A DNA stretch of 64,000 bases from Scolanthus callimorphus (lineage: Eukaryota; Cnidaria; Anthozoa; Actiniaria; Edwardsiidae), in assembly GCA_033964015.1 (NCBI GenBank), contig CM066916.1, positions 16,780,501 through 16,844,500 on the forward strand, written 5' to 3'. The notes beneath the pieces were generated by a model. That model was not told the DNA's origin, made no database searches, and saw only the letters and a program-made list of their open reading frames with translations. The translations under genes and the position numbers were made by a program. The first letter of the stretch is position 1, and each line of letters begins with the position of its first letter. This document shows positions 3,655 through 59,568 of this stretch, one piece after another.

Positions 3655-3989
3655 TGTTGCGTTTAGCCCCATAGCCATAGTAGTTACACAAGATAGCATA
3701 CAAGAACTTGACAGGATATTCACATATATAACAACAACAACAACAACTGATTTATTTCATATAGCTCAATCATATTTATATACAAGTTTCTAGGCGTATC
3801 AAGAATGGAATTCACGTACGATTATTTAGAGTTACATTCTTTTGGTTCCGGCAAGTCCTACATAGGAAATTACATACAGGTATCATAATAATTGTGATAG
3901 CACTAATCTATCTAATCTAAAGTGGTGAATCATGACTTAGATAGAGTAATCAGATAATGGATACGTAATATCAGGCACGTATTCTAACA
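3655..3989 (-). repeat. Copia 3' LTR
   Basis: 335 bp, bounded on the plus strand by TGTTGCGTTTAG and ATTCTAACA. In element orientation it is the 3' LTR. It contains an AATAAA signal on the minus strand and a short (TTG)n tract. Confidence 0.95.
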
Positions 3990-3998
3990 CCCCCACTT
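3990..3998 (-). other. Copia polypurine tract
   Basis: On the minus strand the nine bases AAGTGGGGG abut the 3' LTR start TGTTAG. This is the expected place and composition for the plus-strand primer. Confidence 0.8.
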
Positions 3999-4030
3999 GC
4001 TCTGATGTTACGAACCTTCAACAAAAAAAA

Positions 4031-6940
4031 TTAATTTCCCATTATAAAAGTTTTGAACTTTTCCAGCTTAGCTTTTGTGGCTGGTTTTGTAAAAATGTCT
4101 GCTACATTGTCCTCAGTTGGGACATACTGAACTTTTACATTTCCACTTTGAATTTCTGATCTGATAAAGTGGTATTTGATGTCAATGTGCTTCGATCTTT
4201 GATGGTTAACTGGGTTCTTAGCTAGATTAATTGCTCCCTGATTGTCGACATGAATCGTTACTTCTTCAACCATAATACTCATGTCAGTACATAGCTGTTT
4301 CAAAAATTTAGCTTCTTGTGCAGCATTAGCTAGTGAAATGTATTCAGCTTCACAAGTAGATAAAGCTACAGTTTGCTGCTTGCGGCTTTTCCATGAAATT
4401 AACGGTCCATTCTCAGTCAACTGAAAATTATATCCAGTTATGCTGCGTCTATCTTTCACAGATGCTCCCCAGTCCGAATCACACGAGCCTGTAAGTATCA
4501 AGGCTGATTCCGATTTGCCAAATTTAAGGCCTTGTTCCCGTGAACCTTTGAGATATCTCAGTACATGTTTTGCCATACTGAGATCTGACTGAGTTGGTTT
4601 TGCCATATTCTGTGAAAGTTTAGTCACAGTGTAACACAAATCAGGTCTAGTACCTGTCATTACATATATTAAACTCCCCACAATTGCTCTATACAATCTC
4701 GGATCATCCAATTCGCGCGCTTCTTCGTCGTTACTCTTTTCTGCTCCTAGAGCGCACGGCGTTGCCTTTGGTTTGCAATCTGACATTTCAAATTTCGAGA
4801 GGATTTTATCTATGTATTGTGTCTGGCTCATCTCGATTGAATCTTTGTTGCATTTGAAATTTGTTCCCAAAAACCACGAAAGTTTGCCAAGATCTTTCAT
4901 TTTGAACTTTCTGCACAGAGCCTCTTTAACGCTTTCCAACAAAGTTAAAGTAGTTGCAGAAATTATGATATCATCTACCCAGATGATCAAAATAATCAAT
5001 CCATTTTCCTCTGAATTTCTAGTGTACACGCATGGGTCTGCGAGCGATTGAGAAAAGTTTTCACTTAGCAAATAGTTATGAAGCATGTTGTTCCAATTTC
5101 TCCTGCTTTGTTTCAAACCATATAGAGATTTCTTTAACTTACAAACTAGTTTCTCTCCGTTTTCTCCGCGCTTCTCAAAGCCTTCCGGTTGTTCCATATA
5201 AATTTCGCAGTCAATTGGCGCATTTAGATAAGCTGTCTTAACGTCCATTTGATGAGTAATCATGTCATTCTGCACTGCTGTTTGCATAAGCATTCGTACT
5301 GAACTCATGCGAGCAGTAGGCGCAAACGTTTCCTGATAGTCTATGTCTGCGATTTGTGAATAGCCTTTAGCTACGTAGCGTGCTTTATGTGTCTCTTCTC
5401 TATTAGGTCCCGTTTTCACGGCAAAAACCCATTTTCCCCCCACTATCTGTCTACCCTCGGGTGGCGTGACTAACTCGAACGTGTCATTGTCAATTAGAGC
5501 TGTCATTTCGTCATTCATGGCCTTTTGCCATTTTGGCATCTCTTTTGAAATCAAAGCATCGTCATAAGTGGTCGGGATGTTCGCGACTCGATAACAGTAG
5601 TCTACAGTGTTGCTAACTTCGTCTAAGTCACTGTTCATTGCATATTCGTCAAAACGCTTAGGTTTGTTGCGAATTCGTCCGGGATAACGACGTTCTAGTT
5701 CGTGTTCAGTACTCTCAGACTCCGTCACGTCCTCCTCTTCTGTTGTTTGTTCTGTTACGTCAGTGTCAACAGTTGTATGTGGGGTCGGTAACACACTCTC
5801 GTCTTCGTCTATCTTAGGCACGTAAACTTTGTTTTGTTCAAGAAATTTTACGCATCGCGCTCTTTCTACAACGTTTCTCTCCGGGTAATAAACAAGGTAT
5901 GCCGGACTATCTCGGTCATAACCTACGAAAGTGCCTTTCTTACTGCGCGCTTCTAATTTCTTCGCGTTCTGAACATAGGCATAACACGTAGAGCCAAAAA
6001 CATGCATCCTACTCGCATCCGGTTTCTTTCCGATAAGGGCCTCATAAGGCGTTTTACCTAATCGCGCGTTAAAACAACGATTACGAATGTATGCGGCTGT
6101 CATTACTGCGTACGTCCACAATTCCTTAGGTAATTCAGACTCTAGCAAAAGACATCTCGCCATTTCAAACAGGCTTCGCCACATCCTTTCTGCAGTACCA
6201 TTCTGGTGCGGAGAATGCGGCGCACTTGTCTCGCGCTTAATGCGATTTTTGCGAAGTAAAGACTTAAACTGTTTACTTGTAAATTCACCCCCGCCATCCG
6301 ATCTAATGCGCTTTGGCTTACCAAATGGAGCGATGTCAGCAAGAAACTTCTGCGTCGCTTCTAGAGTATCACTTTTCTGTTTCAGAAAATACACCATGTT
6401 AATACCGGTAAAATCATCTACAAAACACAAAGCATATCGGAAACCTCCCTTTGCTACGGGATCTATCGGGCCGGCCAAATCGCAATGCACAAAATCTAAA
6501 GGTGCTTTAGCCCTATCATCTGGCTTACGGCTCCGAGTTTGGCACATTTTGCCTTGCGTACAAATAGCGCAATCGAGCTGTTCATCATTCGCAATTTTCA
6601 TGCTTTCAACAACATTTTCCAATTTGCGTAAATCTTGAAAATTACAATGACCCATAATTTGGTGCCACTGCATTAAAGAACTCGCATTATTGTTTGAAGA
6701 TGAAATGCTGTTTAGGTAATACAAACGGCCTTTCTGCTCGACCTCAAACATTGTGCCATCTGGTGCTTTAAAATACTTTGCGTCCTTATTAAGACTGACA
6801 CTCGCGCCCTTTGCAATGGCAGCAGAAACTGAAAAAATGTTTTGGTTGTATGACGGAATGTACAGAGCATTGTTGAGAATAACATCTTGTAAATTTCCAT
6901 TTACATCGAAAAGCTTTACTTTGGCATTCCCTTTTCCCAA
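4031..6940 (-). CDS. pol: Copia polyprotein: integrase, RT and RNase H
   Basis: An uninterrupted 969-codon frame carrying the downstream part of a Copia polyprotein. In order: pre-integrase zinc-binding region (WHQIMGH near residue 93, then CAICTQGK near 125), integrase core with HCDLAG, RSDGGGEF and NGTAER supplying the DDE triad (about 150-250), reverse transcriptase with YGLKQ and the catalytic WVDD (family usually YVDD), and Copia RNase H ending with the DNQGA and KHIDIKYHFIR motifs. It converts element RNA to cDNA in cytoplasmic particles and integrates it. The frame opens with TTG rather than ATG, because it was once continuous with gag-protease: a single-base loss near 6938 put them in different frames. 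Apart from that indel I see no stop or gap. Confidence 0.93.
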   Translation of the reverse strand: MGKGNAKVKLFDVNGNLQDVILNNALYIPSYNQNIFSVSAAIAKGASVSLNKDAKYFKAPDGTMFEVEQKGRLYYLNSISSSNNNASSLMQWHQIMGHCNFQDLRKLENVVESMKIANDEQLDCAICTQGKMCQTRSRKPDDRAKAPLDFVHCDLAGPIDPVAKGGFRYALCFVDDFTGINMVYFLKQKSDTLEATQKFLADIAPFGKPKRIRSDGGGEFTSKQFKSLLRKNRIKRETSAPHSPHQNGTAERMWRSLFEMARCLLLESELPKELWTYAVMTAAYIRNRCFNARLGKTPYEALIGKKPDASRMHVFGSTCYAYVQNAKKLEARSKKGTFVGYDRDSPAYLVYYPERNVVERARCVKFLEQNKVYVPKIDEDESVLPTPHTTVDTDVTEQTTEEEDVTESESTEHELERRYPGRIRNKPKRFDEYAMNSDLDEVSNTVDYCYRVANIPTTYDDALISKEMPKWQKAMNDEMTALIDNDTFELVTPPEGRQIVGGKWVFAVKTGPNREETHKARYVAKGYSQIADIDYQETFAPTARMSSVRMLMQTAVQNDMITHQMDVKTAYLNAPIDCEIYMEQPEGFEKRGENGEKLVCKLKKSLYGLKQSRRNWNNMLHNYLLSENFSQSLADPCVYTRNSEENGLIILIIWVDDIIISATTLTLLESVKEALCRKFKMKDLGKLSWFLGTNFKCNKDSIEMSQTQYIDKILSKFEMSDCKPKATPCALGAEKSNDEEARELDDPRLYRAIVGSLIYVMTGTRPDLCYTVTKLSQNMAKPTQSDLSMAKHVLRYLKGSREQGLKFGKSESALILTGSCDSDWGASVKDRRSITGYNFQLTENGPLISWKSRKQQTVALSTCEAEYISLANAAQEAKFLKQLCTDMSIMVEEVTIHVDNQGAINLAKNPVNHQRSKHIDIKYHFIRSEIQSGNVKVQYVPTEDNVADIFTKPATKAKLEKFKTFIMGN

Positions 6941-7971
6941 ACTACATTGGCCTTACTTCCATCTGCCAATTCAATATAATGACCATTTGCGTCAAAATTT
7001 TCATCAAAACTCACAAATTTTTCACGCTCTGTTACAATGTGGCTCGTAGCACCACTATCTAGTAAGAGATTAGTGACTTTCTTACCATTCCTATTTGTTA
7101 TCTGTTCTTCACTAAAAGTAAAGGCGAAATCATGTTCGTCCTCCTCGGCACTCTTCTTTGCGGAGTCGCCTGATCTCTGTTGCCCTTGTGACTGACCTTG
7201 GGGCTTCCTGCTGCGACAGTCTCTTGTGTTGTGTGATACAGTCCTACACTTTGCACACCATTTGCTAGACTCCTTGCTGTAGCAGTCAATACTTTTGTGG
7301 CCTTTTCTTCCACATTTGTAGCAGTTTCCCTGGAATTTTTGCTTTAAAGTCATGACGCTTTCCTCGTCATTTCCAGGGGTCCTTCGGCAGCTTTTCTCCG
7401 TCTCCTCATAGTTTCGGAGAGCTGTTTTAAACTCGCTGAAGGTCATCGGTTTTTCCTTCTGCGCTGCCACCGTCGCGAAGGTTTTGTAGCCATCTGGCAG
7501 GCCTTTTAGAGCCATGGCTACCAGTAGCCCATCGCTTATTACTTCTTCGGCGGCTTTCAGGGCGGTAGATGCTTTCTCCGCTCGGAGGATGTAGTCCGTT
7601 GTAGACTCGCCATCCTTCATCGTCAGGGAAGTCAACTCAGTATATAGGGCAATTACTCTTGGCTTCCCCTTGCCCTGGTAGTGCTCTCGCAAGACACCTA
7701 GGGCTTTCCTGCCGTCGTTATTGGCCTCTCGTATCACGAGAGCCAAACTTCTGTCGTCCAAGCACTGGACCAACTCCGCGAACGCATTTGCGTTCTTTTC
7801 TTCGTCAGGGGCCGTGGTTTCTCCTTCCTTTGGTATAACCACATGGTACAGCTTCTGGAGGCGCATGTAGCCAAGGAACTTTACTTCCCAGAGCTCGTAC
7901 TTGCTTTCGTCTCCACTGAACATGAGCGTCCTCCTGGGCCCATAACCTGTTGCGTTTAGCCCCATAGCCAT
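6916..7971 (-). CDS. gag: Copia gag and aspartic protease
   Basis: Gag with the Copia-type N-terminal domain (FSGDESKYELWEVKF), two CX2CX4HX4C zinc knuckles (CYKCGRKGHKSIDC and CAKCRTVSHNTRDC), then the protease active site LLLDSGATSH. It packages element RNA into particles. The frame runs into pol but ends in WEKGMPK and a stop where pol begins one frame away. Start choice is uncertain: ATGs at 7971 and 7965 lie inside the 5' LTR, so translation from them would read through the primer-binding site; ATG at 7923 is the first after it but would sit only 3 residues before the conserved domain. I chose 7971 because the frame is open across the LTR border. Confidence 0.85.
   Translation of the reverse strand: MAMGLNATGYGPRRTLMFSGDESKYELWEVKFLGYMRLQKLYHVVIPKEGETTAPDEEKNANAFAELVQCLDDRSLALVIREANNDGRKALGVLREHYQGKGKPRVIALYTELTSLTMKDGESTTDYILRAEKASTALKAAEEVISDGLLVAMALKGLPDGYKTFATVAAQKEKPMTFSEFKTALRNYEETEKSCRRTPGNDEESVMTLKQKFQGNCYKCGRKGHKSIDCYSKESSKWCAKCRTVSHNTRDCRSRKPQGQSQGQQRSGDSAKKSAEEDEHDFAFTFSEEQITNRNGKKVTNLLLDSGATSHIVTEREKFVSFDENFDANGHYIELADGSKANVVWEKGMPK
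7933..7947 (-). promoter_or_regulatory. Copia primer-binding site for half initiator tRNA
   Basis: Immediately inside the 5' LTR the minus strand reads GGTTATGGGCCCAGG. The plus strand, CCTGGGCCCATAACC, is the anticodon stem-loop of eukaryotic initiator tRNA-Met (anticodon CAT), not its 3' end. Drosophila copia is known to prime from a tRNA-iMet fragment cut in the anticodon loop, and this site has the same design. Confidence 0.9.
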
Positions 7972-8282
7972 AGTAGTTACACAAGATAGCATACAAGAAC
8001 TTGACAGGATATTCACATATATAACAACAACAACAACAACTGATTTATTTCATATAGCTCAATCATATTTATATACAAGTTTCTAGGCGTATCAAGAATG
8101 GAATTCACGTACGATTATTTAGAGTTACATTCTTTTGGTTCCGGCAAGTCCTACATAGGAAATTACATACAGGTATCATAATAATTGTGATAGCACTAAT
8201 CTATCTAATCTAAAGTGGTGAATCATGACTTAGATAGAGTAATCAGATAATGGATACGTAATATCAGGCACGTATTCTAACA
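7948..8282 (-). repeat. Copia 5' LTR
   Basis: 335 bp, apparently identical to 3655-3989. It should carry the promoter and, on the minus strand, an AATAAA at 8049-8044. The gag frame is open into this LTR. Confidence 0.95.
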
Positions 8283-42212: not shown

Positions 42213-42405
42213 GGAGTACCCACTGGGTTTTTTGTATACAGTCAAATAGCAACAATATGTGGATAGTGACTTCATTATTTCCAAAAGTACAAGCATGTTG
42301 GTCAAATACTTTATGGTAATTTGGTGGCTCCTAAAGGAGCCGTTTGTTTTATGCCTGCATAGCAGGCTAAGCTTGTCTTGGCTGAATCACTTCTTGTCAG
42401 CTCAG

Positions 42406-42783
42406 TCAGCCTTGGAATGACAGCTGCTTTGCGTGAGCGGGACCCATCTGCATGCCAGTAGTTTCCCTAAAGAGCCTCAGAAGGTCTGGCACCTTCTTCT
42501 TTTTCAGCTCATACTCACTAAACTGTGCTGGTGTCAGTGTCAGTGTTGGTGTCAGGTGTGTTCAGGATACATTGGAGCTCCTTTGTGATTCTTAGCACTT
42601 TCTTTGCCACTTCCAGCTTGCTCCACCGTCACAGAACTCCATGTCGTGTTTGTTGCAGGTGTGATTATCATGGTTTGGTCATACCCTGGCCCTAAACCAG
42701 ACAGAGAGACCATGTGCTCTCCCCATGCCTTGACCTTTAAGCAGATAAGCATGATTATGGATACAGTAAAAACAAAACCTACA
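42406..42783 (-). other. Coding-like segments, unknown
   Basis: Two minus-strand stretches. One (42783-42552) has a hydrophobic start VGFVFTVSIIMLICLKVKAW followed by polar sequence ending KGAPMYPEHT. The other (42522-42406), after a possible acceptor CACCAGCACAG, reads FSEYELKKKKVPDLLRLFRE to a TGA. They are in different frames, separated by ACTGACACTGACACC repeats. They may be exons of one gene or chance; I cannot decide. Confidence 0.2.
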
Positions 42784-43513
42784 CACAAGTACCAAAGACC
42801 CCTTTAATAAGTCCAGTTATACACATTTTTCGCGAATAACGTCGTGGAACTTAAAAAGCGTCTATAGAAGGTTGGCTAAAAAAATTCTCACATGCTAATT
42901 GTGCTCTTAAAGGTTACTAAGAACCTTCGCGCACGTCCTCGAAAAAAAATCATACTCGTCCTTAGTTTAATCAAAACATGTCAACCTATATATCGTCGGA
43001 AAGCTTATAAAATGGACTAGCGTGCTATTAGAAAAAGAAGTAACTTTTGTAATAATCATAATTTTTTTAAAGCTTTTATAAAAACCTTTGAGTGTGACAT
43101 TTTCAAGAGCTATCGCTGCAGAGTTCCATAACTTTTGAACTAAGCAAAATTTAAAAAAACGCGGACACGGTTTTTGAGAAACATATTTAAGGATTTAAAC
43201 AATGTGTTGCTTGGGAGTCAAGGTCAAGCAGTTCGGCAACGATAGCTCTTGAAAGTGTCACACCCACATTTTTAATAAAACCTTCAAAAAAATTATATTT
43301 ATTAAAAAGTTATTTCTTTTTGCCATAGCCCGCTAGTAGTATAGGAGGGGCCGAACTACCCTTTTTTTAGGGGGAATACTAATTAGTGAGGGGGAATATA
43401 TAATGAGCTTGATGACGTCATGATCTATGTTTAGCCTTTTTTCGGTCACGTCACTGTCACGCGCGGAAAACGTCTTAGTTCTGATTGGCTTAGCCTACAT
43501 ACACTCTGATTAG
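42784..43513. other. No gene seen
   Basis: AT-rich sequence with an inverted pair near 43095-43110 and 43240-43260 (GAGTGTGACATTTTCAAGAG, GAGCTATCG versus CGATAGCTC TTGAAAGTGTCAC). Its last 17 bases, ACATACACTCTGATTAG, recur in reverse at 54932-54948 and are the left flank of the Polinton-like element. Confidence 0.5.
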
Positions 43514-44212
43514 TTCAAAATACACTCTATTGTTCTCATCGTCTATAAAACCAGAGCTGCAGAGGCTCCGGACCACTTCATTTGAGGGGAAATATATAAT
43601 GAGCTATGTAATGACGTCACATGAAGACACCCCTCCCCATCCTTTTTCAAGCAAGGGGGTACCCCCCTCCCCTATTTCAAACAAGGGGTAACCCCCTCTC
43701 CTTTTTTGAACAAGGGGGCACCCCTCCCCCTCCTTTTTTCAAGTAAGGGAGGTACCCTCCCCCTCCCCCTTCTTTTTTTAATCAAGGGGGATACCCTCCC
43801 CACTCCCCTTCCTAAGACTACTGGGTATCAGGTTACCTATAATTTGGCAGGCGCTACGCCACTGGGGGTATCAGGTTATATCCGGATTAGTAATGACGTC
43901 ATAGGCTATTTTAGTGACAAAAAGCACATACGACTAGTTGAATAGATATATATCGTTCTTTATTATCCATTACATTGTCCCTATTACATAAGATTCTATT
44001 ACATAACATACTACCACTAGCGGTAATTAAATAAACGCTTTATTCCGATCTATACATTGCTTACAGTCTGGTAGTGTTTTCCTATTAACTACTAATTTTC
44101 TTATTTTATATGGAGAAGAACGGTGAGAACGCAAGCGATAGCGTCTCAACGTGGATTTTAGATACGGTCCGTCTTTATTGGCATCGTCATCCAAATAATT
44201 CTTTAAGATATT
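43514..44212 (+). repeat. Polinton-like TIR, left
   Basis: Pairs with 50881-51581 with only scattered differences. From the outside: TATAAAACCAGAGCTGC, a ladder of AAGGGGG/CCCCC blocks (43630-43810), GCGCTACGCCACTGG, the AATAAAG shared polyadenylation region, and the last ~60 codons of the 168-codon gene. Confidence 0.9.
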
Positions 44213-44533
44213 TTGTAATTTTGGCTTCTTTGGGGTTATAGCCACTGAAGGTGGCGGTGTCAAGGTCGGTTCTGGAACGGTCGGCGTCGGCGGAATAAAC
44301 GATGTCTTGGGAGATTCTACCAACTTTGCCAAATAGGGTATAGTGTCTGGCTCGGGTGATGTTAAAGGGATACTTGGGGGAGTAGTGTAGGTAGGTGTTG
44401 TTACTGGAGGTTCTACAACCACTGGAGGGTTGTGACTTGCTTGGTGCTTCATTCGTAACAATTCGTTTTGAAGCTGCGTGTATCGTATGACCTTTTCACC
44501 TTCACTCATAGCGGAACTCCTGTGGAGCCCCAT
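44027..44533 (-). CDS. Proline-rich protein with basic C-terminus, TIR-overlapping
   Basis: 168 codons from ATG at 44533 (a second ATG, MSEGEKV, at 44509). Residues 10-35 form a likely helix, 36-105 are a Pro/Thr-rich linker (VEPPVTTPTYTTPPS and similar), and the C-terminal 60 residues are basic (LRRYRLRSHRSSPYKIRKL). Codons for about the last 60 residues lie in the left TIR. The AATAAA signal overlaps the codons for N-K just before the stop. Its right-TIR counterpart is frameshifted after SPYKIR. The Pro-rich, basic-tail layout would suit a minor virion protein, but I do not recognise the family. Confidence 0.55.
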   Translation of the reverse strand: MGLHRSSAMSEGEKVIRYTQLQNELLRMKHQASHNPPVVVEPPVTTPTYTTPPSIPLTSPEPDTIPYLAKLVESPKTSFIPPTPTVPEPTLTPPPSVAITPKKPKLQNILKNYLDDDANKDGPYLKSTLRRYRLRSHRSSPYKIRKLVVNRKTLPDCKQCIDRNKAFI

Positions 44534-45650
44534 AGGCTAATGTGTGAAAAAAAAAATGAATAAAAAAAATGAATAAAAGTAACCCATCGAGTTGTATTCG
44601 AGTGGTTGTACAGCCGCTGGTGTACCGTCGGCTTATTTCTGAGTGCGTACATGGTGTGTTGCCATGGGTTACGATATTCACTTTTTGCCGGCGGCCCTTG
44701 TGCAAGTCAAGATTTCGTCCGCCATCTGCAGTTTCTTGTAGCTTGTATCATTGTTATTGGCCACAAAACTTTGAAAGAACTTTCGGGGATGTTCGGAAAA
44801 GATACATGAAGCCTTTGGGTTACCTGTCTTTGGTTGTTGGCAGAATGGACTGGGATCAGGGAAGGATGAGTAATCGATAAAGTCAGCCGGGATCATACCA
44901 GAAAGAAATTAATTTGGAGAGGTTTATAAAATCAAGCTATGAATCATTCTAGATAATACAAAAACAAGGAAAATAATTTGCAGCTTTGTTACAGCTCAAC
45001 ACGGAATAAATTAAATTGTCATAGACACGGAATTCTCACGGAATTTAGCCAGCCTTTGCAGTCTCAACATTTGTACATGGAAAGAACAATGTACGACTCG
45101 CTTCTCAAGGACATCCTTGGAGCTGAATAAGTTTCTAACGACAGAAATGCTTTGGCATCAAGATTCCTTCAAGAAGAAAAGACACGATATTCAGGTGAGT
45201 TTTAAAGGAAGTTTGTTCCAAAGTTGAGTGCTTTTTGCTCATCTCTTTGCTTATAGGGCGCATGTTCTCCATTGAAACTGCAACACATGAATCGCTAGGA
45301 TATCATATTTAAACTACTCTATCTATACTTCATATCCCTTGTACTTGCATAAGATAATTGTAAATACACAATGGAATCGTGTTTCAGTCCCGTGATTCAT
45401 TCAGCAACTCTCTTTAATTTGGCTACTGGAAATTAGATTTAATTAACTCAATATTTGAAGCTTAGCTTTGTGGATGAGACTGTGTGTTTTGGTGAAAACT
45501 TTTTTGCTGAAAAGGGGTGTGCATTTGGCGTGAAATCATAGACAGAAATAAATAATGATTGACTGTAACATTGTATCATGATAACAAAGCTTAAAGTTGG
45601 TGGCCAGCATCACAGCCAGCTGAAAGACAAAAGCATTTTCCACTCTTTTA
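44534..45650. other. Polinton-like interior, no gene recognised
   Basis: Short frames on both strands (for example 44896-44678 minus) show no recognisable domain. No polymerase or integrase motif seen. Confidence 0.45.
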
Positions 45651-45918
45651 CTGTGCGACTACGTCAATCGGGCCATTTTGTAAGAAGTTAGCCAATCAGA
45701 AAGCGAGTACAGAACAAAGGATGTCGACTTTCTTGAGTTCTGAGACACCGAAATATCGCTTTTCTCGTAATAATTGTGAAAATTATGTGCAGAAATAACT
45801 TCAAAACACTTAATTACTCATCGTCATATGTATTGCAAGTATTAAATTTGCTTAAAATGGTTTGGATCTCTAAATGACAAACTTTTTACGGGATGGCCCG
45901 ATTGACGTAGTCGCACAG
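45651..45918. mobile_element. Mariner-like MITE
   Basis: TIRs CTGTGCGACTACGTCAATCG and complement ending CGTAGTCGCACAG, with TA on both sides (45649-45650, 45919-45920). 268 bp, non-coding. Inserted within the Polinton-like element. Confidence 0.85.
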
Positions 45919-47198
45919 TAATCCTCTGGTAATGTCATTTTTTGTCAGCAGAGATCAGGCTAAGACATTTTTTTATTAGGCAGTTTGTTAGAAAATGCAA
46001 GGGATTTTCTTGATTTTCTTGCATAACAAAGTTCCCAGGCACAACAGGCTTTGGCAATAAAAAAAATCCCCCCAACCCCTGGACATTTGCTGGTTTTCCT
46101 CAGTTGCTGGTTTTCCACAGTTCGAAATGCCTACAAGCTAACTTTGCATATATAGAGCGTGGGAGGAAAATCGCTCACATTTCCTAACAAGCTGCCTTCA
46201 AATAAAGAAAATGTCTCGGCCTGTCATCTCTGTTGAGAAAAAATGTTATTACAACAGTAAATACTTTAAAACAGTGGAAACACATTTGTCTTTCAGTTGG
46301 CCAAGATGCCTTTATTCACTGTGCATTTTTTATGCCGATTTAGCTTGTAGATCTCATTTCTACAAGCTAATTCTAAAGAAACAGGTAATTCTAAAGAAAC
46401 AAACCCTGCCTACGGACAATTAAAAAAAAATCATTTGGGTCAGGACTTTTTTCCCTGCAAGCAGATTACCCCTGATGGACATTTTTCACATTACCCCAGG
46501 GTAAAACGAAACAACCAATCTGACCCCAAAGGGGCAGGGAGGAACGCTTGTGCACATTTTCTTATTAAACTTCTACCTGGAATGTGCTATTATGCAGAAG
46601 ATACTATCATCTTTCTTTTTTCTTGCATGGGTCTTACAGGAATGTCAACTCTCCCGGTTTTGCCAGGCGTCTCAAGAGTTTTTGCTTCGTTTCCCAGCAC
46701 AACTTCAAGATGACTGCCATACATTTACTGTATTTCTCCCGGGAATATTTCAGGAAATTTAGCCATTTCAAGACAATCTCCAGATTTTTTAAGTCCCTGG
46801 GTTGACGTCCCTGGTCTTAGAGATTCCATGAAATGAATGATTTTCTGATTTTCTTGCTAGAGGTCTGGAATCTTAGAATTCAGACTTAGGTTAAGATTTG
46901 TCACCACACTCTAAAGTTTCTGTGGAATTTTAAATGCTGTTTCAAGGACTTTAAAGGTACTTTAAGGTATCAGTTATGGTATTTGATGATCCAACCCTCC
47001 AAGCCTGTAAATTTATTTTACTGACTAGGCTACTTAGCTGTAGGTGTCCCGTTTGACTTTCATTTTTTTTTTCCAGTTTTTAGGTGCTGATGCTAGGGCT
47101 GGTTCACACATGAATTGCAACACAAGGTGCAAGAAGGTAGCCAAGACTTTTTCCAGGGCATCAGCTAACCCATCCTGTAACTCTAGACTCCATTTGCC
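45919..47198. other. Polinton-like interior, no gene recognised
   Basis: Short plus-strand frames (for example 46435-46713) have no family resemblance. A small duplication of AATTCTAAAGAAACA is at 46368-46400. Confidence 0.45.
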
Positions 47199-47592
47199 CA
47201 GGGGGGGGGGGGGACTCCCAATATTTTAGACGGGGGTGCTCGTCAGGAAAATTGATTTTGACCCTAAGGGATAGCAAAATGGGTGTGGCAAACAGCAAAT
47301 TTACCCCTAAAGGAAAGCAAATTCGGCGTGGCGACTGCCAAATTTACCCGTAAAAGATAGCAGGTCAAAACAAATAAAAGCCGAAATTTTAGGTCTTTTA
47401 GGGTTTCCAACCAAGTTTCCTTTGTAAATATCGGTTCTGGTGTCAGTACCAATATATTTCTGGGCAAGGATTGGTCTGAGACTCCCCTTAGGGATAGGTC
47501 TGATTTTAAACACCCCTAAGAGAGAGCACGTCTGTCATTTTTATACCCTAAGGGATAGGACGAGCACCCCCGTCTGAAAATATGGGGAATCA
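47199..47592. mobile_element. CCCTAAGGGATAG-family MITE with G13 end
   Basis: Termini GACTCCCAATATTTTAGACG with GGGGGTGCTCGTC and its complement GACGAGCACCCCCGTCTG at 47559. The interior consists of degenerate repeats of CCCTAAGGGATAGCAAA / AATTTACCC. Related pieces are at 41632-42212 and 59829-59965. Confidence 0.75.
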
Positions 47593-47667
47593 GGATCTCA
47601 CCTTATAGTGGGTAAGGGGGCTATGCTCATTTTTCTGTTGGTAGTTTTTCGTTTACGTTTACTTTAA

Positions 47668-48097
47668 GGGAGCATTCATTATTTATGCCAGGGGTGGGCT
47701 GGCAATTATTAAGGGGGACCATGTTAAATTTGGCACGTTCAAGTAGAGGGTCACCAGAAAATATGAAAACAAGTGTGAGGATTCGTCTACGTTTTATGGC
47801 AGCAACGACGTTAATATAATATATGGATACAAGAGGTTACACACCTGTAAAATTACAACAAACTGTTTATGCACGCACCAGGAAATGTCTTAAAAATACT
47901 GGTTGTTGTCTACTTGGTATCTAGATGTCGCAACATTTCTTCCTCATCTAAAGGGGGGAGGGGGCTATCATTATTATAAAAATTGCCTAAAGGGGTTTCA
48001 AGGTTTTTATTGATAATTTGAGGGGGGTCAAGTTTTTTTTGGGCTGAATGAAAAAATCTTGCCAGCCCACCCCCTGGCATAAATAATGAATGCTCCC
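47668..48097. mobile_element. Harbinger-like MITE
   Basis: TIRs GGGAGCATTCATTATTTATG CCAGGGGTGGGCTGGCAA and complement; flanks TAA (47665-47667) and TAC (48098-48100), one change from a TWA duplication. 430 bp, non-coding. Confidence 0.75.
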
Positions 48098-48574
48098 TAC
48101 CAGAACAAGGCTTAAAACTGGATTTAAACCATTGCTCACTGGAGTTCCAGTAAATCCCCCTACAATGAGATATACTTAGATATATTTTTATTCGGAACTG
48201 TAAGAAATAATATTGATTTACATTGGCAAAACTCCAATAAATATAAAAAAGTACATTAATTTTTGCCTAATTTTGATTGTTTGATTTCACTTATTAGTTC
48301 AAAGAGGGGGTTCGAAGGCTTGTCATGATGGAGTTATTTTGTAGTTTAAGTAGTTCTTCTTGTTCTGTTTTGGTCACCCATACAAAATTTTGCTATGTTT
48401 TCGGATATTTTCTATTAATTTTAGTAATATTATTCTTGTGATGCATCCAAGGGGGCCATTTGACATAAATTGACTTTGGTTTTGATTTCTATGGTATGGA
48501 TAAAATTGATCTTCCATTTCAGTTCTTTATTTTTTTTCTAACACCTTGAATGACCTGCTTTGTCTCCCGTTTTC
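48098..48574. other. Polinton-like interior, no gene seen
   Basis: AT-rich, no coding feature. Confidence 0.5.
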
Positions 48575-48845
48575 CATCCGTAGGTCATGGAAGGACATTG
48601 GAAATCCCGGAGGGGTGAGGGTGGGGAGTCAATTTACTTTCTTTGGAGGAATGAGGGGAGGGGGTCTCCTCTCAACACCCTTCTTTGTGGGGGGGATATT
48701 TTCTGGAAATGTCTGGTTCCATATTATCCATACCCTCCTACGAAGGGATTGGAAATGCCGTCAATTTACCTGATCTTTTCCATACAAATACTGTTTTTTT
48801 CTTTGGAAATTACATAGAGGGGGTAAGGAGATTTTTGGAAACACG
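48575..48845. repeat. Partial copy of the GTGTTTCC G-rich MITE
   Basis: Contains ATTGGAAATCCCGGAGGGG, GTCAATTTACTTTCTTTGGA, CTCTCAACACCCTTC and GATATTTTCTGGAAATG, in the order seen at 30902-31066, followed by a second partial unit to 48845. Confidence 0.65.
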
Positions 48846-49472
48846 ATTATGATTATGATTTTTATACTACAGTACAGATTTTTAAGGGTTTTTTTCTGAC
48901 TTTTCTGACTAGGATTCTGTTAGGGGTAGTTAGGAAACTCAGTATTATTAAGCAACTCTTTCTAAGGAAAAAAAATCTTCAGATGTTTAGGTTTTGCCAG
49001 ATTTCTAGGATTCTGTAATGGGAAGTTATGTTTCTCTGGGGTTAAAATACATGTCCACAATACACAGCTCTTCAAATTCTATTTGTCCAACAAGCACCCC
49101 CACCCAAACTGATTTGAATGAGTGCTCGACCTTGACTTTTTTGATCACTAGTCCCATCGGGACAAGTAGCACAGAAACGTTACTTGCCTTAGCCAACTGG
49201 CTTATCAATTATAGTCCATTATAGTCTAGTTTTGGTCATTTCCAAATGCTGCTGTCCCCTCTGGCGACCATGACTCATAGCGCAAAAACAATAGAGTGTT
49301 TTGATATGACGTCATAGTGAAATAGGGCAATTATTGTCAGAAATTTGCTATGATATTATTGCATTGTATAAGAATTAGTCGTTCTGTAAGAGGTATAAAC
49401 ATTGCAGTTCCGCTTTTAGGCAGTGCCTAATTCTATATATTAGTTTGACTGTGAAGGATGTCGTCCATTTTG
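48846..49472. other. Polinton-like interior, no gene recognised
   Basis: A 60-68 codon frame lies on each strand at 49018-49224; neither matches a family. Both are probably chance or remains of a Polinton gene too decayed to name. Confidence 0.4.
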
Positions 49473-49775
49473 TCATGTAGTTCTCTCATTCGCCGCTCTT
49501 GGGTTCCTGAATAGGATCAAGTAGTGGCTGTTTAAGGATATGTTTCGATTGACTTTACCTTGGTGAAATAGGTTTTGTAGGATATAAATCACTGACAGAT
49601 TTCTGTGACGGGATCCCTTTGTGAATAAGTTTGCAATCCTGTTGTCATTCCTGGTTTCAATCATCTGATCGTCAATGACAATGGGGTTTCGTATATGCAA
49701 ATCAAAGTACGAGTCTTGCTCAATGTCATTTGGAATTCCTTTACGAATTCTATTTCTTGGCTTTCTCCAGGCCTT
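49473..49775 (-). pseudogene. Polinton-type packaging ATPase, C-terminal fragment
   Basis: Open on the minus strand from 49775 to a stop at 49473. It encodes GIPNDIEQDSYF, the Walker B segment NPIVIDDQM, and then NLFTKGSRHRNLSVIYILQ, NLFHQGK, RNISLNSHYLILFRNPR: the conserved sequence of the FtsK/HerA-type genome-packaging ATPase of Polintons and adintoviruses. The Walker A half is missing; the frame is cut at 49775 where a plus-strand gene fragment begins. The end is also altered after FRNPR. In an intact element the protein would pump DNA into capsids. This fragment is the strongest evidence for the element's identity. Confidence 0.8.
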
Positions 49776-49932
49776 GTGTAGTTGCCCGCCACATCAGCGT
49801 CAATACCTTCTCGACACAGCCACCCCAGAACAAGTTCATGCTCTAACTCAGGTTGCCCATAATATCGGAAAGGGTTACATTCCATTAAGTGACAATGAGT
49901 TTAGAAACGTAAGACGACATGGGAGGACCTAG
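49776..49932 (+). pseudogene. Small Polinton/adintovirus-type protein fragment
   Basis: Plus strand: ALCSCPPHQRQYLLDTATPE, QVHALTQVAHNIGKGYIPLS, ending VRRHGRT and TAG. Polintons and adintoviruses carry a small protein with this plan (R..LL..A....I..L.E.A.N.L.G.VPL....K..L.RHK). The start is missing: upstream sequence belongs to the opposed ATPase fragment, so the junction at about 49775 is a deletion point. The role of the family is not firmly known; a core or DNA-associated virion protein has been suggested. Confidence 0.6.
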
Positions 49933-50048
49933 GCGCCTTGGCTAGTGGTTCCACCCCTTTCAAAGAAAAAAAGCAAATCTTGTCACAAAAAGGGGGTGGG
50001 TTTGTCAAAGACCTACTCGTCCCTGTTTTAGCATTGCTGCTCTGAGGG

Positions 50049-50056
50049 TATAAATA
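50049..50056 (+). promoter_or_regulatory. TATA box
   Basis: TATAAATA, 45 bases upstream of the ATG at 50101. Position and sequence fit a core promoter for the acidic protein gene. The plausible transcript start would lie near 50080. Confidence 0.6.
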
Positions 50057-50100
50057 CAAGTCACGTTTGAAGATTAATTCATTTGCGGTTGCCTTTTACC

Positions 50101-50907
50101 ATGAAACGTTCACTGGACTCAGATAGCGATATGTCTAGCGATGACGAGGATGAGCACGAGGAGACTAAAGATGAACCTCGAATCAAAGACGTGTTGAGTC
50201 AGATTTCAAATGCTGTTCCCTATCAAGGTGCCCGAGACCTTCTCCACAGCATAGCCACCTCTAAAGATATTTTGTTTTGGTCGCCTAACGGGGAAATGAT
50301 TCGTCGTAAACGCAGAATGCCAAACACAGTTATTGCTGATCTTGTAGAGTTTGTATTACTACCTTTCAACGAAGATATTTCACCTCCAAGAGGCTTAAAG
50401 TCTTTTCTCGAGGGACTGGCAGAATTAGGAGTTGATAAGAGATTGATCCGTAATAAAGCAGCTTTGAACGATGTAGTTACTTATGAAAGCAGAGAGAGAC
50501 AAAGCGACCAATCTAGCGATGATGAAACGGACGGTAATAATGAAAGTGTTGAACAAACTGACCAATCTAGCGACGATGACGAAGAAGAGCGATCCAGTGA
50601 TGAGGAAGCTGAGCAATCCAGTGACGACGAAAAGAGTCAAGAGGGAGGTGGAGTCTCGAGTGACATTGAAAAGAAAGTCGATGTGAAGGGAACAATTCTT
50701 ATCGTATCGATATTGCTGGGTGTGGAATGTGCTTGTGGCAAGATAAAATGTACGGGTGTTATGAAAAAGGCAAACAATACCAATGTCCAGTTTGTCAAAA
50801 GCAATCACCCATGGGAAAAGCTTGGAAGGGGTCTTTTCTGCGGTGTTATGATTGCATGGCGGGATCGTATTACAACAAGAAAAAATCTTAAAGAATTATT
50901 TGGATGA
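50101..50907 (+). CDS. Polinton-type acidic protein (ILFWSPNGE motif)
   Basis: From the ATG at 50101 (KRSLDSDSD follows) the frame is open for 268 codons. Residues 6-25 are acidic; residues about 30-125 form a folded domain with DILFWSPNGEMIRRKRRMPN, DLVEFVLLPF, PRGLKSFLEGLAELGVDKRL and IRNK, a pattern (W...GE, ...DL..., P.G...F...L...V...LI.NK) that I know from uncharacterised Polinton and adintovirus proteins. Residues 130-200 are four DQSSDDE-type acidic repeats. The last ~70 codons probably do not reflect the native protein: the frame one base away there is Cys-rich and more protein-like. The stop falls just inside the right TIR. A TATA box precedes it. Confidence 0.6.
   Translation: MKRSLDSDSDMSSDDEDEHEETKDEPRIKDVLSQISNAVPYQGARDLLHSIATSKDILFWSPNGEMIRRKRRMPNTVIADLVEFVLLPFNEDISPPRGLKSFLEGLAELGVDKRLIRNKAALNDVVTYESRERQSDQSSDDETDGNNESVEQTDQSSDDDEEERSSDEEAEQSSDDEKSQEGGGVSSDIEKKVDVKGTILIVSILLGVECACGKIKCTGVMKKANNTNVQFVKSNHPWEKLGRGLFCGVMIAWRDRITTRKNLKELFG
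50670..50891 (+). pseudogene. Cys-rich zinc-ribbon-like frame overlapping the acidic gene
   Basis: Open for 73 codons in the frame one base back from the acidic gene, ending in TAA at 50889-50891. It has paired cysteines CGMC, then YGC, CPVC and CYDC (C-x2-C spaced 18, 17 residues apart) in IAGCGMCLWQDKMYGC, QYQCPVCQ and FLRCYDCMAG. Such spacing is hard to get by chance. It has no upstream ATG until Met 20, so it is either the true C-terminal domain of the acidic protein, reached by frameshift, splicing or before a mutation, or a separate gene that lost its start. Confidence 0.5.
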
Positions 50908-51581
50908 CGATGCCAATAAAGACGGACCGTATCTAAAATCCACGTTGAGACGCTATCGGTTGCGTTCTCACCGTTCTTCTCCATATAAAATAAGATAAAA
51001 TTAGTAGTTAATAGGAAAACACTACCAGACTGTAAGCAATGTATAGATCGGAATAAAGCGTTTATTTAATTACCGCTAGTGGTAGTATGTTATGTAATAG
51101 AATCTTATGTAATAGGGACAATGTAATGGATAATAAAGAACGATATATATCTATTCAACTAGTCGTATGTGCTTTTTGTCACTAAAATAGCCTATGACGT
51201 CATTACTAATCCGGATATAACCTGATACCCCCAGTGGCGTAGCGCCTGCCAAATTATAGGTAACCTGATACCCAGTAGTCTTAGGAAGGGGAGTGGGGAG
51301 GGTATCCCCTTGATTAAAAAAAAGAAGGGGGAGGGGGAGGGTACCTCCCTTACTTGAAAAAAGGAGGGGGAGGGGTGCCCCCTTGTTCAAAAAAGGAGAG
51401 GGGGTTACCCCTTGTTTGAAATAGGGGAGGGGGGTACCCCCTTGCTTGAAAAAGGATGGGGAGGGGTGTCTTCATGTGACGTCATTACATAGCTCATTAT
51501 ATATTTCCCCTCAAATGAAGTGGTCCGGAGCCTCTGCAGCTCTGGTTTTATAGACGATGAGAACAATAGAGTGTATTTGAA
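50881..51581 (-). repeat. Polinton-like TIR, right
   Basis: Reverse complement of 43514-44212. It includes a copy of the C-terminal coding part of the proline-rich gene with a 2-base insertion after SPYKIR that brings a stop. Outer end ...GTGTATTTGAA, then AACAATCTAG. Confidence 0.9.
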
Positions 51582-52430
51582 ACAATCTAGTCCAGTACAT
51601 TTACGGATAGACCTAGAACTAATTGCAACAGAAGCTCTCTCTTCACAATTCAATAGTAATTACCATCATAAACAACATACTATAAGTCCTACTGCATGCG
51701 TGCGGTGGAACCCCTCCAAATTTAACAGTTTAGAATATGACTCTTTACCTTTAGCATGGAAACGAGGCTGTAACCGGAAGTTGAGCTATTTCGCTGGAAA
51801 CCGAGCAATTATTTTATCGGATCTCAAAGTAATAGATATTTTGTGTCTTCTTTAACATTCTTCTAATATATGTGACCCTTTTTGAGTATTTTCTTCTTGA
51901 GACTAGTCGTTTGCTTAGGAAGATTTAATGGGTGAGATACGCGTATTAGCTGGTCAAGATCGTAAAGGAAATACGCATGTAAAATAGGAGTTTTATTTTC
52001 GTTGATATTGCTCGTCCTAAACAAGAATTTGAAAGTGACAGATGCAATTCTCGCCTTTTGATAATCATAAGAGTAATAAACTGGCATTTTCTGAATTCGT
52101 AAGATCGTCTTTCATCATCTGCTGCTCATCTTTTGGCTACCCAGGTGCAAACAAATTTCAAAGTTGTGCCGCAATTAGTGGAAAAGTGGTTTATTTTGAA
52201 ACCTTTTCATGATTATCAAAATGCCGTTTTGATTGCGACCAAGACCACCCTTCAGGTCTGCGGTAGGGTATACAATTTTGACCGTAGGTCTACGGTAGGG
52301 TATAAAACTAACGAGAATTTTTGGTTTCTGATAGGGTCAAGTTTTTGAGACCTTGGCGGCACACCCCTACCGAGAAATCAGTGTAGTACCATCCCCGGGG
52401 TGCGTGTGTAGTTTACACTACACGACTGAT
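51582..52430. other. No supported gene; right flank of the Polinton-like element
   Basis: 51587-51640 (CTAGTCCAGTACAT...CCTAGAACTAATTGCAACAG) matches 54871-54942 in reverse. A plus-strand frame starting in the TIR (51520-51855) crosses the element border and so is not a gene. GGTCTGCGGTAGGGTATA and GGTCTACGGTAGGGTATA are a local duplication at 52255-52300. Confidence 0.45.
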
Positions 52431-56230: not shown

Positions 56231-57468
56231 TTAAGAGCGCTCGTCCACAAATATCAACCAAGTGGCGAAATAGAAACATTTTCGAAATTCGCCAACTTTT
56301 GCTCATTTGTTCCTCTACTGGATCTATAATCGCTGTGAAAATTTTAGGTCGATCCGATAAATATTTACATGAGCGAACTTGTTATCTGATTATCCGGCAA
56401 ATTGCCCCGTTCGAGACCATTTTTAGCCTACCTCAAAATTGGTTAAAAATCGTAAGTTTCAGCAAACGAATCCAAGCATAAGAGGTTTCTAACTAAAGAT
56501 GAGACATTTCTTGGTACTAGGAGTGAATTTTTAAACTCGTAGAGGAAAAATTAAATATTTTACCGATTTTTCAATTATTTCAAGTTTTCGTACTGTGTTT
56601 TGAAGGTGAAATTGGATGGCTAATATTTCCATTTCGACGGCGGCGGCGAATTCAGCCGGTTTCTCAATTCTGTAGGCGAAAATGGTCCTTATTGATTACA
56701 TTTCTCAAGTGAAAATTGAGGGCCAGGCAGAGTTAAAGTTTTGCGAAAGCTATTGCGAGCGCCGCTTCAGGCCAATTTGTGACACTTAGAAACACCTTCG
56801 ATCACGTACCCGTCGAGTTTAAAAATACACAAGAAGCCATTGCCTGCATGACTTACAATTAAGTGTTCTCCGTTGGGCCTTCGTAGAATGAGTTTCCAGC
56901 TCGAAATTATCTCATCCAGCGACCTACTTTCAACGTAAACAACACCAAACCCGGCACAACATGCAGACATTTCCCCCAGTATTTGCAATTTCTCCATCGC
57001 CTTATGTTCACATAGTGTTTCAAAGCCAAATTGCCCTGTATTAATCTTTTGACGAGAAATCTAGAGCTAAATCTAGGCCCATGGGAAGGAATATTCTGCT
57101 CGTAGCGAAATATAAACTTTACAAGACGAAGAGCTGTCAAGACTGAAGACACGTCACCAGTACCACAGGAAGCCCAATTTGGTGGCATGCATCAGCACAT
57201 CCGCCGCGGATTGTTCTCGCGAATTCGGGCCTGGCAAAATTTAGTAATCTGAGTTCTAAAAAGGCGTAAGACACTTGCCTACATTAGTTTATAGAAATAA
57301 ACAAATTTGAGAAAGCGAAAAAGAGTTCCCTTGTGTACGAACGACAGACCAAAAGACCCTTTGAGTCAGAGGGAAACGCCGATTCACTTCTTATAACAAA
57401 TCAAAAATAAATCCACAGCGTTTCCTGAATGTCGTAATAGAAGGACCTGAAATCAAGGTTTTTCCTAG
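56231..57468 (+). repeat. Large inverted repeat, left arm
   Basis: Starts TTAAGAGCGCTCGTCCACAA and ends near TCAAGGTTTTTCCTAG. Its reverse complement is 58160-59568, which is about 170 bases longer through insertions. On the minus strand the arm contains coding-like sequence (56997-56767: GFGVVYVESRSLDEIISSWK, RRPNGEHLIVSHAGNGFLCI, ending KCHKLA). Confidence 0.85.
56767..57188 (-). pseudogene. Coding-like remains in the left arm, unknown
   Basis: Two overlapping minus-strand frames (PNWASCGTGDVSS... and MEKLQILGEMSACCAGFGVV...). The right arm carries the same sequence, but with an in-frame stop after ESR and a ~50-bp insertion beginning GTAAGTG and ending GGTGCAG exactly where this arm reads straight through, as an intron would. 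The protein is unrecognised. Confidence 0.3.
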
Positions 57469-58159: not shown

Positions 58160-59568
58160 CGCTAGGAAAAAGCTTGATTTTCAGGTCCTTCTATTACGAC
58201 TTTCAGTTTTTTGTTATATCTTATAATCTTTTTTGACTCATAATGAAATGTCAAAAAAGTTACAATATTATTGTGTAGTATCTAGGGGTAGTGTATAAAG
58301 AAATTTGAAAAGAAAAATGCGAGAGGGAAGTTAAATGAAATTAAATGTTGTTATAAGAAGTGAATCGGTGTTTTGACGTCGAACAACACAGAAAGTCTTT
58401 TGGTCTGTCGTTCGTACACAAGGGAACTCTTTTTTCTCTCTCGCTTTCTCAAATTTGTTTATTTCTATAAACTAATGTAGGCAAGTGTCTTACGCCTTTT
58501 TAGAACTCAGATTACTAAAATTTGCCAGGTCCGAATTCGCGAGAAATCCGCAGCGGATGTGCTGATGCATGCCACCAAATTGGACTTCCTGTGGTACTGG
58601 TCACGTGTCTTCAGTCTTGAGAGCTCTTCGTCTTGTAAAGTTTATATTTCGCTACGAGCAGAATATTCCTTCCCATGGGCCTAGATTTAGCTCTAGACTT
58701 CTCGTCAAAAGATGAATACAGGGCAATTTGTCTTTGAAACACTATGTGAACATAAGGCGATGGAGAAATTGCAAATACTGGGGGAAATGTCTGCATGTTG
58801 TGCCGGGTTTGGTGTTGTTTACGTTGAAAGTAGGTAGCTGGATGAGATAATTTCGAGCTGGAAACTCATTCTACGAAGGCCCAACGGAGAACACTTAATT
58901 GTAAGTGATGCACAGCTACAATAAATGTTTTTTCTATTCATTTGGTAGTGTTTCTGGTGCAGGCAATGGCCTCTTGTGTATTTTTAAACTCGACGGGTAC
59001 GTGATCGAAGGTGTTTGTAAGTGTCACAAATTGGCCTGAAGCGGCGCTCGCAATAGCTTTCGCAAAAACTTTAATTCTGCCTGGCCCTCAATTTTCACTT
59101 GAGAAATGTAATAAATAAGGACCATTTTCGCCTACAGAATTGAGAACCGGCTGAATTCGCCGACGAAATGGAAATATTAGCCATCCAATTTCACCTTCAA
59201 AACAGAGTACGAGAACTTGAAATAATTGAAAAATCGGTAAAATATTTATTTTTTTATCTACGAGTTTAAAAATTCACTCCTAGTACCAAGAAATGTCTCA
59301 TCTTTAGTTAAAAAACTCTATGTTTGGATTCGTTTGCTGAAACTTACGAGTTTTAACCAATTTTGAGGTAGGCTAGAAATGGTCTCGAACGGGGCAATTA
59401 GCCAGATAATCTGATAACAAGCTCGCTCATGTAAAATATTATCGGATCGACCTAAAATTTTCACAGCTATTATAGATCCAGTAGAGGAACAAATGAGCAA
59501 AATTTAGCGAGTTTCGAAAATGTTTCTATCTCGCCACTTGGTTGATATTTGTGGACGAGCGCTCTTAA
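58160..59568 (-). repeat. Large inverted repeat, right arm
   Basis: Reverse complement of 56231-57468, ending GACGAGCGCTCTTAA at 59568. Extra sequence relative to the left arm lies at about 58205-58350 and 58908-58960. Confidence 0.85.

Follow-up and report, generated by a model that had tools for sequence, protein, structure and literature searches.

The window (the whole 64,000-nucleotide stretch of DNA that was analysed) contains the remains of a Maverick/Polinton-type element in which pieces of an ATPase gene lie beside a small gene and an acidic gene. An ATPase piece on the minus strand (49476–49793) had homologues in 395 of 395 candidates at E ≤ 0.01 (best 2.3e-34), which bears out the packaging-ATPase fragment proposed in the initial annotation. 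Some of the 120 relatives listed for this piece carry PF04665 and 11 of its 19 aligned members match Pox_A32; the window piece itself matched no Pfam family. The core of the piece (49498–49755, minus strand) has a Walker B motif (VIDDQM) and the motif NLFHQGK, and a further piece of the frame (49441–49497, minus strand) lies between an insertion and a 259-bp deletion. The Walker A part was lost through a deletion of about 847 bp at 49755/49756. Together, the two deletions removed the start of the ATPase and part of its C-terminal half.

A 168-codon proline-rich frame (44027–44533, minus strand) had been described as a separate protein. On its own, this frame found no homologue (none of 88 candidates reached E ≤ 0.01). 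In relatives, it corresponds to the C-terminal part of a 425–444-aa ATPase frame, and it is therefore the ATPase tail, severed from the rest of the frame by a 4.93-kb insertion (44512–49440). The frame is still open, as initially reported, but it is no gene of its own.

The small protein gene (49756–50042, plus strand) has lost its start and has a frameshift before its C-terminal third. The gene is real and belongs to the layout in relatives. Its protein was compared with L001, an adintovirus/Polinton-like fragment (the 7.1-kb contig JAHFML010000006.1 of a bacterial MAG), and aligned to it better than 494 of 500 shuffles. The acidic protein with the FWSPNGE motif is also real, with 306 of 1438 candidates at E ≤ 0.01 (best 1.6e-55); where the 120 relatives listed name a host, it is a Porites coral. 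Its 268-codon frame (50101–50907, plus strand) has an N-terminal folded domain (residues ~24–146) and a predicted TATA box of its own (TATAAATA, 50049–50056, plus strand) 45–52 bp before the ATG, as first noted. The frame is open but frameshifted near 50680; the family's zinc ribbon lies in another frame (about 50676–50888), and the open frame continues into a copied arm described below. We call the small gene PM-like and the acidic gene PZ-like, names based mainly on position. Homology by sequence between the acidic domain and the 304-aa protein of L001 was considered and is unsupported (160 of 500 shuffles reached its score; hhalign probability 7%, E 0.0048). Scans of viral contigs yielded a single locus (L002, where 32 residues matched in a contig of 266 kb). 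Searches by phage tblastn and against PDB sequences and BFVD, and comparison of the window frames with Pfam and PHROGs, gave no useful lead.

Ends and rearrangement of the window copy

The initial annotation placed the element at 43514 and bounded it with inverted repeats of about 700 bp. Comparison with relatives in the same genome places the true left end at 43335, where the sequence starts with AGTAGT. The outermost left TIR (43335–43512, plus strand), about 180 bp beyond the end first assigned, is common to the window and its relatives; on its right side, the window copy lacks it. Just outside the true end, the host flank CCCGCT (43329–43334) occupies the 6-bp slot of a target duplication, without a right partner. 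An imperfect TTCAAA/TTGAAA duplication at the ends first assigned was considered and dropped.

The inverted repeat itself is real (43508–44214 and 50880–51587; 98.7% identity in an alignment of 710 columns that contains 4 mismatches and 4 gap openings). Its left arm (plus strand) comprises the inner TIR and the 3′ end of the ATPase frame, and its right arm (minus strand) is an inverted copy of the left, fused to the acidic gene. Because the right arm ends at 51587 and lacks the terminal ~180 bp, the inverted repeat is not the TIR pair of the element. The right arm occupies the place where relatives have a 250-aa gene and the true right TIR. A fold-back replaced the right end with the inverted left arm, and the copy did not keep both ends as had been suggested.

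Most of the 8.1-kb length first assigned to the element is the 4.93-kb insertion inside the ATPase frame. This middle segment, flanked by a 3-bp duplication (TAG), is not Polinton sequence. In 22 of 33 loci from the same genome, the sequences on either side of it lie next to each other (20 when L041 and L042, repeats of L011 and L012, are set aside), and repeats within it recur at 30.9, 34.6 and 35.1 kb of the window. A motif resembling a TIR tip occurs at 49287 and was an early candidate for a nested end. With one insertion, two deletions and frameshifts in its genes, the window copy is dead.

A compact family in the same genome

The TIR had at least 60 matches in the same genome (40 of 434 candidates scored). 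In the 33 loci fetched, the acidic-ATPase-tail block recurs in the same order in 19, and all four genes are present in 15. A TIR spread through the genome with no Polinton genes between its copies is therefore not what the loci as a whole contain; some (e.g., L017, L018 and L021) have TIR sequence and no family genes in the fetched stretch. Ends could be paired at nine sites (L013/L019 as one site, L020, L031, L032, L033, L036, L043, L011 with L041, and L012 with L042), and at all nine the ends read AGTAGT and the 6-bp target duplications are perfect, a hallmark of Mavericks/Polintons. These ends and duplications, together with the ATPase, support the proposed Polinton origin. The paired-end elements measure 3.8–7.2 kb, and the TIR identities of two of them (98.0% in L032 and 99.4% in L043) indicate that some insertions are recent.

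The family layout is a 250-aa gene (plus strand), an acidic zinc-ribbon gene (minus), the small gene (minus) and the ATPase (plus). The ATPase has an N-terminal C2H2-like zinc finger, an A32-type core and the proline-rich tail, and relatives carry the full 425–444-aa frame with Walker A; the L011 frame matches Pox_A32 only below the Pfam cut-off. In 8 of 33 loci (6 without L041 and L042), an unbroken ATPase match covers 406 or more of the 444 residues, and many copies are broken. The structure model of the 250-aa protein has a mean pLDDT of 44.6. Median dN/dS among clean copies, which were pre-selected, are partly allelic and form non-independent pairs, was 0.32 for the ATPase core, 0.41 for the acidic gene and 0.27 for the small gene; the 250-aa gene (0.64) and the proline tail (0.56) give a weak sign of constraint. 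Without pre-selection, the values were 0.43–0.64. We also identified a second compact lineage of 4.3 kb with the same ends, whose ATPase is 39% identical and has an open frame.

Replication enzymes and candidate helpers

No polymerase or integrase relative was found within the window, in agreement with the initial annotation and with searches of the relatives. A Polinton PolB (C-terminal 537 aa) and integrase from the same genome, both drawn from one Polinton lineage, had no match at E ≤ 1e-3 in L011–L044 or the window. The PolB of L001 was likewise not found in the 33 loci, with a query insensitive enough to find the PolB of this genome only at E = 0.005. The four family proteins have no integrase match in Pfam. 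Furthermore, in seven of eight single-locus paired elements, every frame of at least 130 aa is accounted for; L043 has two unexplained frames of this size, which are repeat-like.

PolB-bearing Polintons are common in this genome, where PF03175 had at least 169 matches (76 of 533 candidates scored). Many of these matches lie in frames of 1500–1700 aa. For example, the 7 kb read at L045 contains PolB, then an integrase (rve plus chromodomain), and two long frames that may encode a capsid; no ATPase relative was detectable in these 7 kb beside PolB. The two long frames had no match at E ≤ 1e-3 in L011–L044 or the window. The search for relatives sharing the TIR returned compact units and no full-size Polinton that could be the helper. 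In the two partial lists compared, 4 of 40 TIR places lie less than 100 kb from any of 76 PolB places, the nearest at about 19 kb.

Interpretation and comparison with known systems

We consider it probable that the locus is a dead, rearranged copy of a multicopy, compact, non-autonomous Maverick/Polinton family that is mobilised by helpers and whose genes are partly constrained. The non-autonomous derivative first offered as an alternative thus fits the family, with its nine duplicated target sites, but not the rearranged window copy. The complete 4–7-kb units, with no polymerase or integrase gene detected in them, probably owe their spread to full-size Polintons. The PolB and integrase of the latter would replicate and insert the compact elements, perhaps by recognising ends common to both. 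The compact genes may act in packaging or particle assembly during this helper-driven cycle, a role that would account for their partial constraint. We read the compact lineage as one that keeps part of the packaging module and is mobilised in trans. A more tentative extension, by analogy, is that the 4–7-kb elements are long-lived Polinton satellites that borrow polymerase, integrase and capsid and whose own packaging motor and assembly proteins divert helper particles; a single genome would then contain two or more such lineages that separated long ago. The compact elements may be virion parasites.

Other readings fit parts of these data. Taking the whole 8.1 kb as one Polinton with both ends intact and TIRs of 700 bp would agree with the near identity of its arms, but this is very improbable: the relatives have 180 bp outside the left arm that are missing at the right arm, and the middle and right junction of the window are absent from the relatives read. 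The near identity of the arms probably reflects the copying that produced the right arm, rather than a young and intact element. It is also rather unlikely that the four genes are mere passengers of one internal-deletion derivative of a full Polinton amplified in trans. The single layout of the first lineage fits one ancestral deletion, and the many broken copies and the dN/dS of the proline tail and 250-aa gene (0.56–0.64) are in keeping with it; however, long open frames are kept, as in the near-complete ATPases, three genes have dN/dS of 0.27–0.41, and the second lineage, with so divergent an ATPase, also has its ATPase frame open. The content of L045 (PolB, integrase and two long frames beside no detectable ATPase relative) and the compact elements with an ATPase and no detectable PolB would also suit a segmented Polinton, with PolB, integrase and capsid on one element, packaging ATPase and accessory virion proteins on the other, and both required. 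We know of no segmented Polintons, and this reading, based on one PolB element and 7 kb of it, appears improbable.

The helper-mobilised reading bears on whether Polintons are packaged. According to PMC8097293, Maverick virions have not been observed. A mobile element without polymerase or integrase, whose packaging ATPase and neighbours are under partial constraint, would indirectly support real packaging and would offer a small system for studying it. No compact ATPase-bearing Polinton derivative appeared in the literature searched (titles and abstracts, with most subscription journals outside its scope).

Vertebrate Mavericks, as described in PMC8097293, span 12.7–24.6 kb and have 5′-(AGT)2 ... 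(ACT)2-3′ ends, TIRs several hundred bp long, 6-bp target duplications and a polB-ATP-PM-PZ module. The compact family resembles them in end motifs, duplications and TIR length, and in a packaging ATPase beside a small and a further gene (cf. ATP-PM-PZ). In contrast to those elements, it measures 3.8–7.2 kb, its ATPase lies on the strand opposite to its two neighbours and has the C2H2-like finger and proline-rich tail, and it has the extra 250-aa gene; PolB and integrase were not found. Hence, of the features of autonomous Mavericks, the family has (AGT)2-type ends, the 6-bp duplication and the A32-type ATPase, and neither PolB nor rve integrase was detected in it; the window copy has the left end motif only (43335) and an ATPase in pieces. 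L001 shares with the window an A32/IVa2-type ATPase (47% across 92 columns aligned to the window piece) and with the compact family an ATPase after which come a small protein gene and a larger one, but it has PolB upstream and its five genes share a strand. Also among the closest known systems are adenovirus capsid chains 6z7n_O and 6qi5_N, which, to judge from their residue numbering, are probably protein IIIa. Like non-autonomous DNA transposons and MITEs, the compact elements have ends without detectable replication or integration enzymes; unlike those, they carry several protein genes under partial constraint. The proposed diversion of helper particles by compact Polintons can be likened to that by capsid-stealing phage satellites and, if true, would provide an animal counterpart to the world of virophages and phage satellites.

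Layout and ends of the compact family

The elements related to the window copy constitute a compact, protein-coding, non-autonomous Maverick lineage, a type for which we found no description in the literature searched. A search of the S. callimorphus genome with the terminal inverted repeat (TIR) yielded at least 60 matches (40 of 434 candidates scored), and we compared 33 partly overlapping loci around such matches (L041 extends L011, L042 extends L012, and L016 continues L015). Four pairs of loci (L013/L019, L011/L030, L017/L018, and L037/L038) have flanks in common and look allelic or duplicated. All nine sites with pairable ends had AGTAGT termini and identical 6-bp flanks, and the elements they delimit measure 3848 (7210 in the L019 copy), 4115, 5596, 4889, 4752, 4946, 5626, 6135, and 6570 bp. 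The 6135- and 6570-bp lengths were derived from positions in L011/L041 and L012/L042, respectively, and the pairing in L031 follows its inverted repeat, leaving out a further right-type end. The remaining loci had one end, none, or ends without pairing. TIR identity ranged from 79.7% to 99.4% in the best aligned end stretches (65–693 columns); insertion was, therefore, spread over time. L013 (contig C2) and L019 (contig C200) share flanks and the duplication TCCCGA but differ in length (3848 versus 7210 bp), suggesting two alleles or haplotigs with large in-place internal changes.

The relatives have the order TIR, 250-aa gene (+), acidic zinc-ribbon gene (286 aa, −), small gene (104 aa, −), ATPase frame (425–444 aa, +), TIR. 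The ATPase frame joins a C2H2-like finger (below the Pfam cut-off), an A32-type ATPase, and a proline-rich tail, so what the initial annotation took for a separate proline-rich protein belongs in relatives to this single frame. The acidic-ATPase-tail block was present in 19 of the 33 loci and all four genes in 15. Furthermore, the elements on contigs C15 and C1 carry an additional RING-finger gene (PF13639; L041:2423–2929, E = 1.1e-07, and L042:2489–2950, E = 1.6e-07) that was not found in the remaining paired elements.

Constraint and a second compact lineage

Eight of the 33 loci (six if L041 and L042 are set aside) match the ATPase frame in a single unbroken piece spanning 406 or more of its 444 residues, and seven match the acidic frame across 275 or more of its 286 residues. 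The median dN/dS of clean copies, taken over pairs with dS > 0.02, was 0.32 in the ATPase core and 0.41 in the acidic gene (18 of 28 pairs each), 0.27 in the small gene (residues 1–64; 68 of 105 pairs), 0.56 in the proline tail (45 of 66 pairs), and 0.64 in the 250-aa gene (residues 60–178; 42 of 45 pairs); the medians were 0.43–0.64 when clean copies were not pre-selected.

We also identified a second-lineage element of 4308 bp adjoining the C1 copy (C1:42447771–42452078; L042:6772 to L044:1578), bounded by AGTAGT ends and a GCCACC duplication. Its zinc-finger/ATPase frame (470 residues, stop to stop) is accompanied by a second acidic frame, and its ATPase is 39% identical to that of the first lineage over 191 residues. 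The presence of such distant ATPases in two compact elements argues against a single accident.

Anatomy and decay of the window copy

The window occupies C6:16780501–16844500 in a genome of 597 Mb and 302 contigs, and its copy of the element is a dead fossil. The inverted repeat initially annotated is present (43508–44214 versus 50880–51587; 98.7% over 710 columns, with four mismatches and four gap openings), but its arms are not the element's two ends. Comparison with the fetched loci moves the left end from 43514 to 43335, where the sequence starts AGTAGT, and the right arm is the left arm copied in inverse orientation. This arm begins at 50880, where the acidic gene is about to end, and breaks off at 51587 without the terminal 180 bp. 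In relatives, the 250-aa gene and then a TIR come after the acidic gene. A 4.93-kb insertion (44512–49440) with a TAG duplication also interrupts the copy; of the 33 loci, 22 have its flanks side by side (20 if L041 and L042 are not counted), and one or both flanks are missing from the rest. Two deletions remove 259 bp at 49497 and ~847 bp at 49755/49756. Because overlaps at the junctions are short or absent, template switching or end joining would fit them. Similar inverted duplications, which fold back internal segments, occur in L035 and L037/L038, a pattern that would fit repeated end copying in the family.

The packaging-ATPase fragment was correctly recognized: all 395 candidates match the piece at 49476–49793 (−), and 11 of 19 scanned relatives contain Pox_A32. 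The Walker A half of these relatives is missing from the window piece. The acidic protein had 306 related sequences among 1438 candidates (E ≤ 0.01); Porites corals are the only named hosts among the relatives listed (48–57% identity). Relatives end in a C-terminal zinc ribbon (CPxCG_zf, matched in 3 of 24 members), which the window also encodes but in a different frame. Thus, the 268-codon acidic frame is open, as first described, but frameshifted rather than an intact gene.

Other features of the window include a segment (43016–43337) that is 72% self-complementary and ends within 3 bp of the element start, and a histone 3′ stem-loop (42303–42346; Rfam RF00032) behind which, at 42500–43500, there is no closed ATG/GTG/TTG frame of at least 80 aa. 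A retrotransposon at 3655–8282, Copia-like by eye, has identical (100%) 335-bp direct repeats (3655–3989 and 7948–8282) and long minus-strand frames. A 1.2-kb inverted pair (56231–57399 and 58348–59568) is 90% identical.

Polymerase-bearing Polintons as possible helpers

The reported absence of polymerase and integrase from the window copy was borne out with queries from one Polinton of the same genome: its PolB piece (537 aa), integrase, and two further frames had no match at E ≤ 1e-3 in L011–L044 or the window. The PolB of L001 (JAHFML010000006.1) had no tblastn match to the 33 loci at the same threshold, an insensitive test because this query reaches only E = 0.005 against a PolB of the S. 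callimorphus genome. L001, which carries PolB, an A32/IVa2-type ATPase, and small proteins, is an adintovirus/Polinton-like sequence that was probably misbinned in the bacterial MAG under which it is filed. Frames of at least 130 aa outside the four genes were absent from seven of the eight paired elements lying on a single locus; the sole exception, L043, has two that are repeat-like, and the one tested had no Pfam match.

Matches to PF03175 number at least 169 in the genome itself (from the 76 of 533 candidates that were scored), and many of them lie in frames of 1500–1700 aa. One such Polinton (L045) has in a row PolB, an integrase (rve plus chromodomain), and frames of 947 and 344 aa, which had no Pfam match and whose position suggests capsid genes. 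Relatives of either compact-lineage ATPase were absent (E ≤ 0.01) from the 7 kb beside this PolB, and none of 40 distinct TIR places lay nearer than ~19 kb to any of 76 PolB places, both lists being partial. The anatomy of the compact elements supports mobilization in trans by PolB/integrase Polintons, via putative shared ends, as the most economical mechanism. The packaging genes that the compact elements retain could, in turn, give them an advantage, possibly in particles shared with these Polintons.
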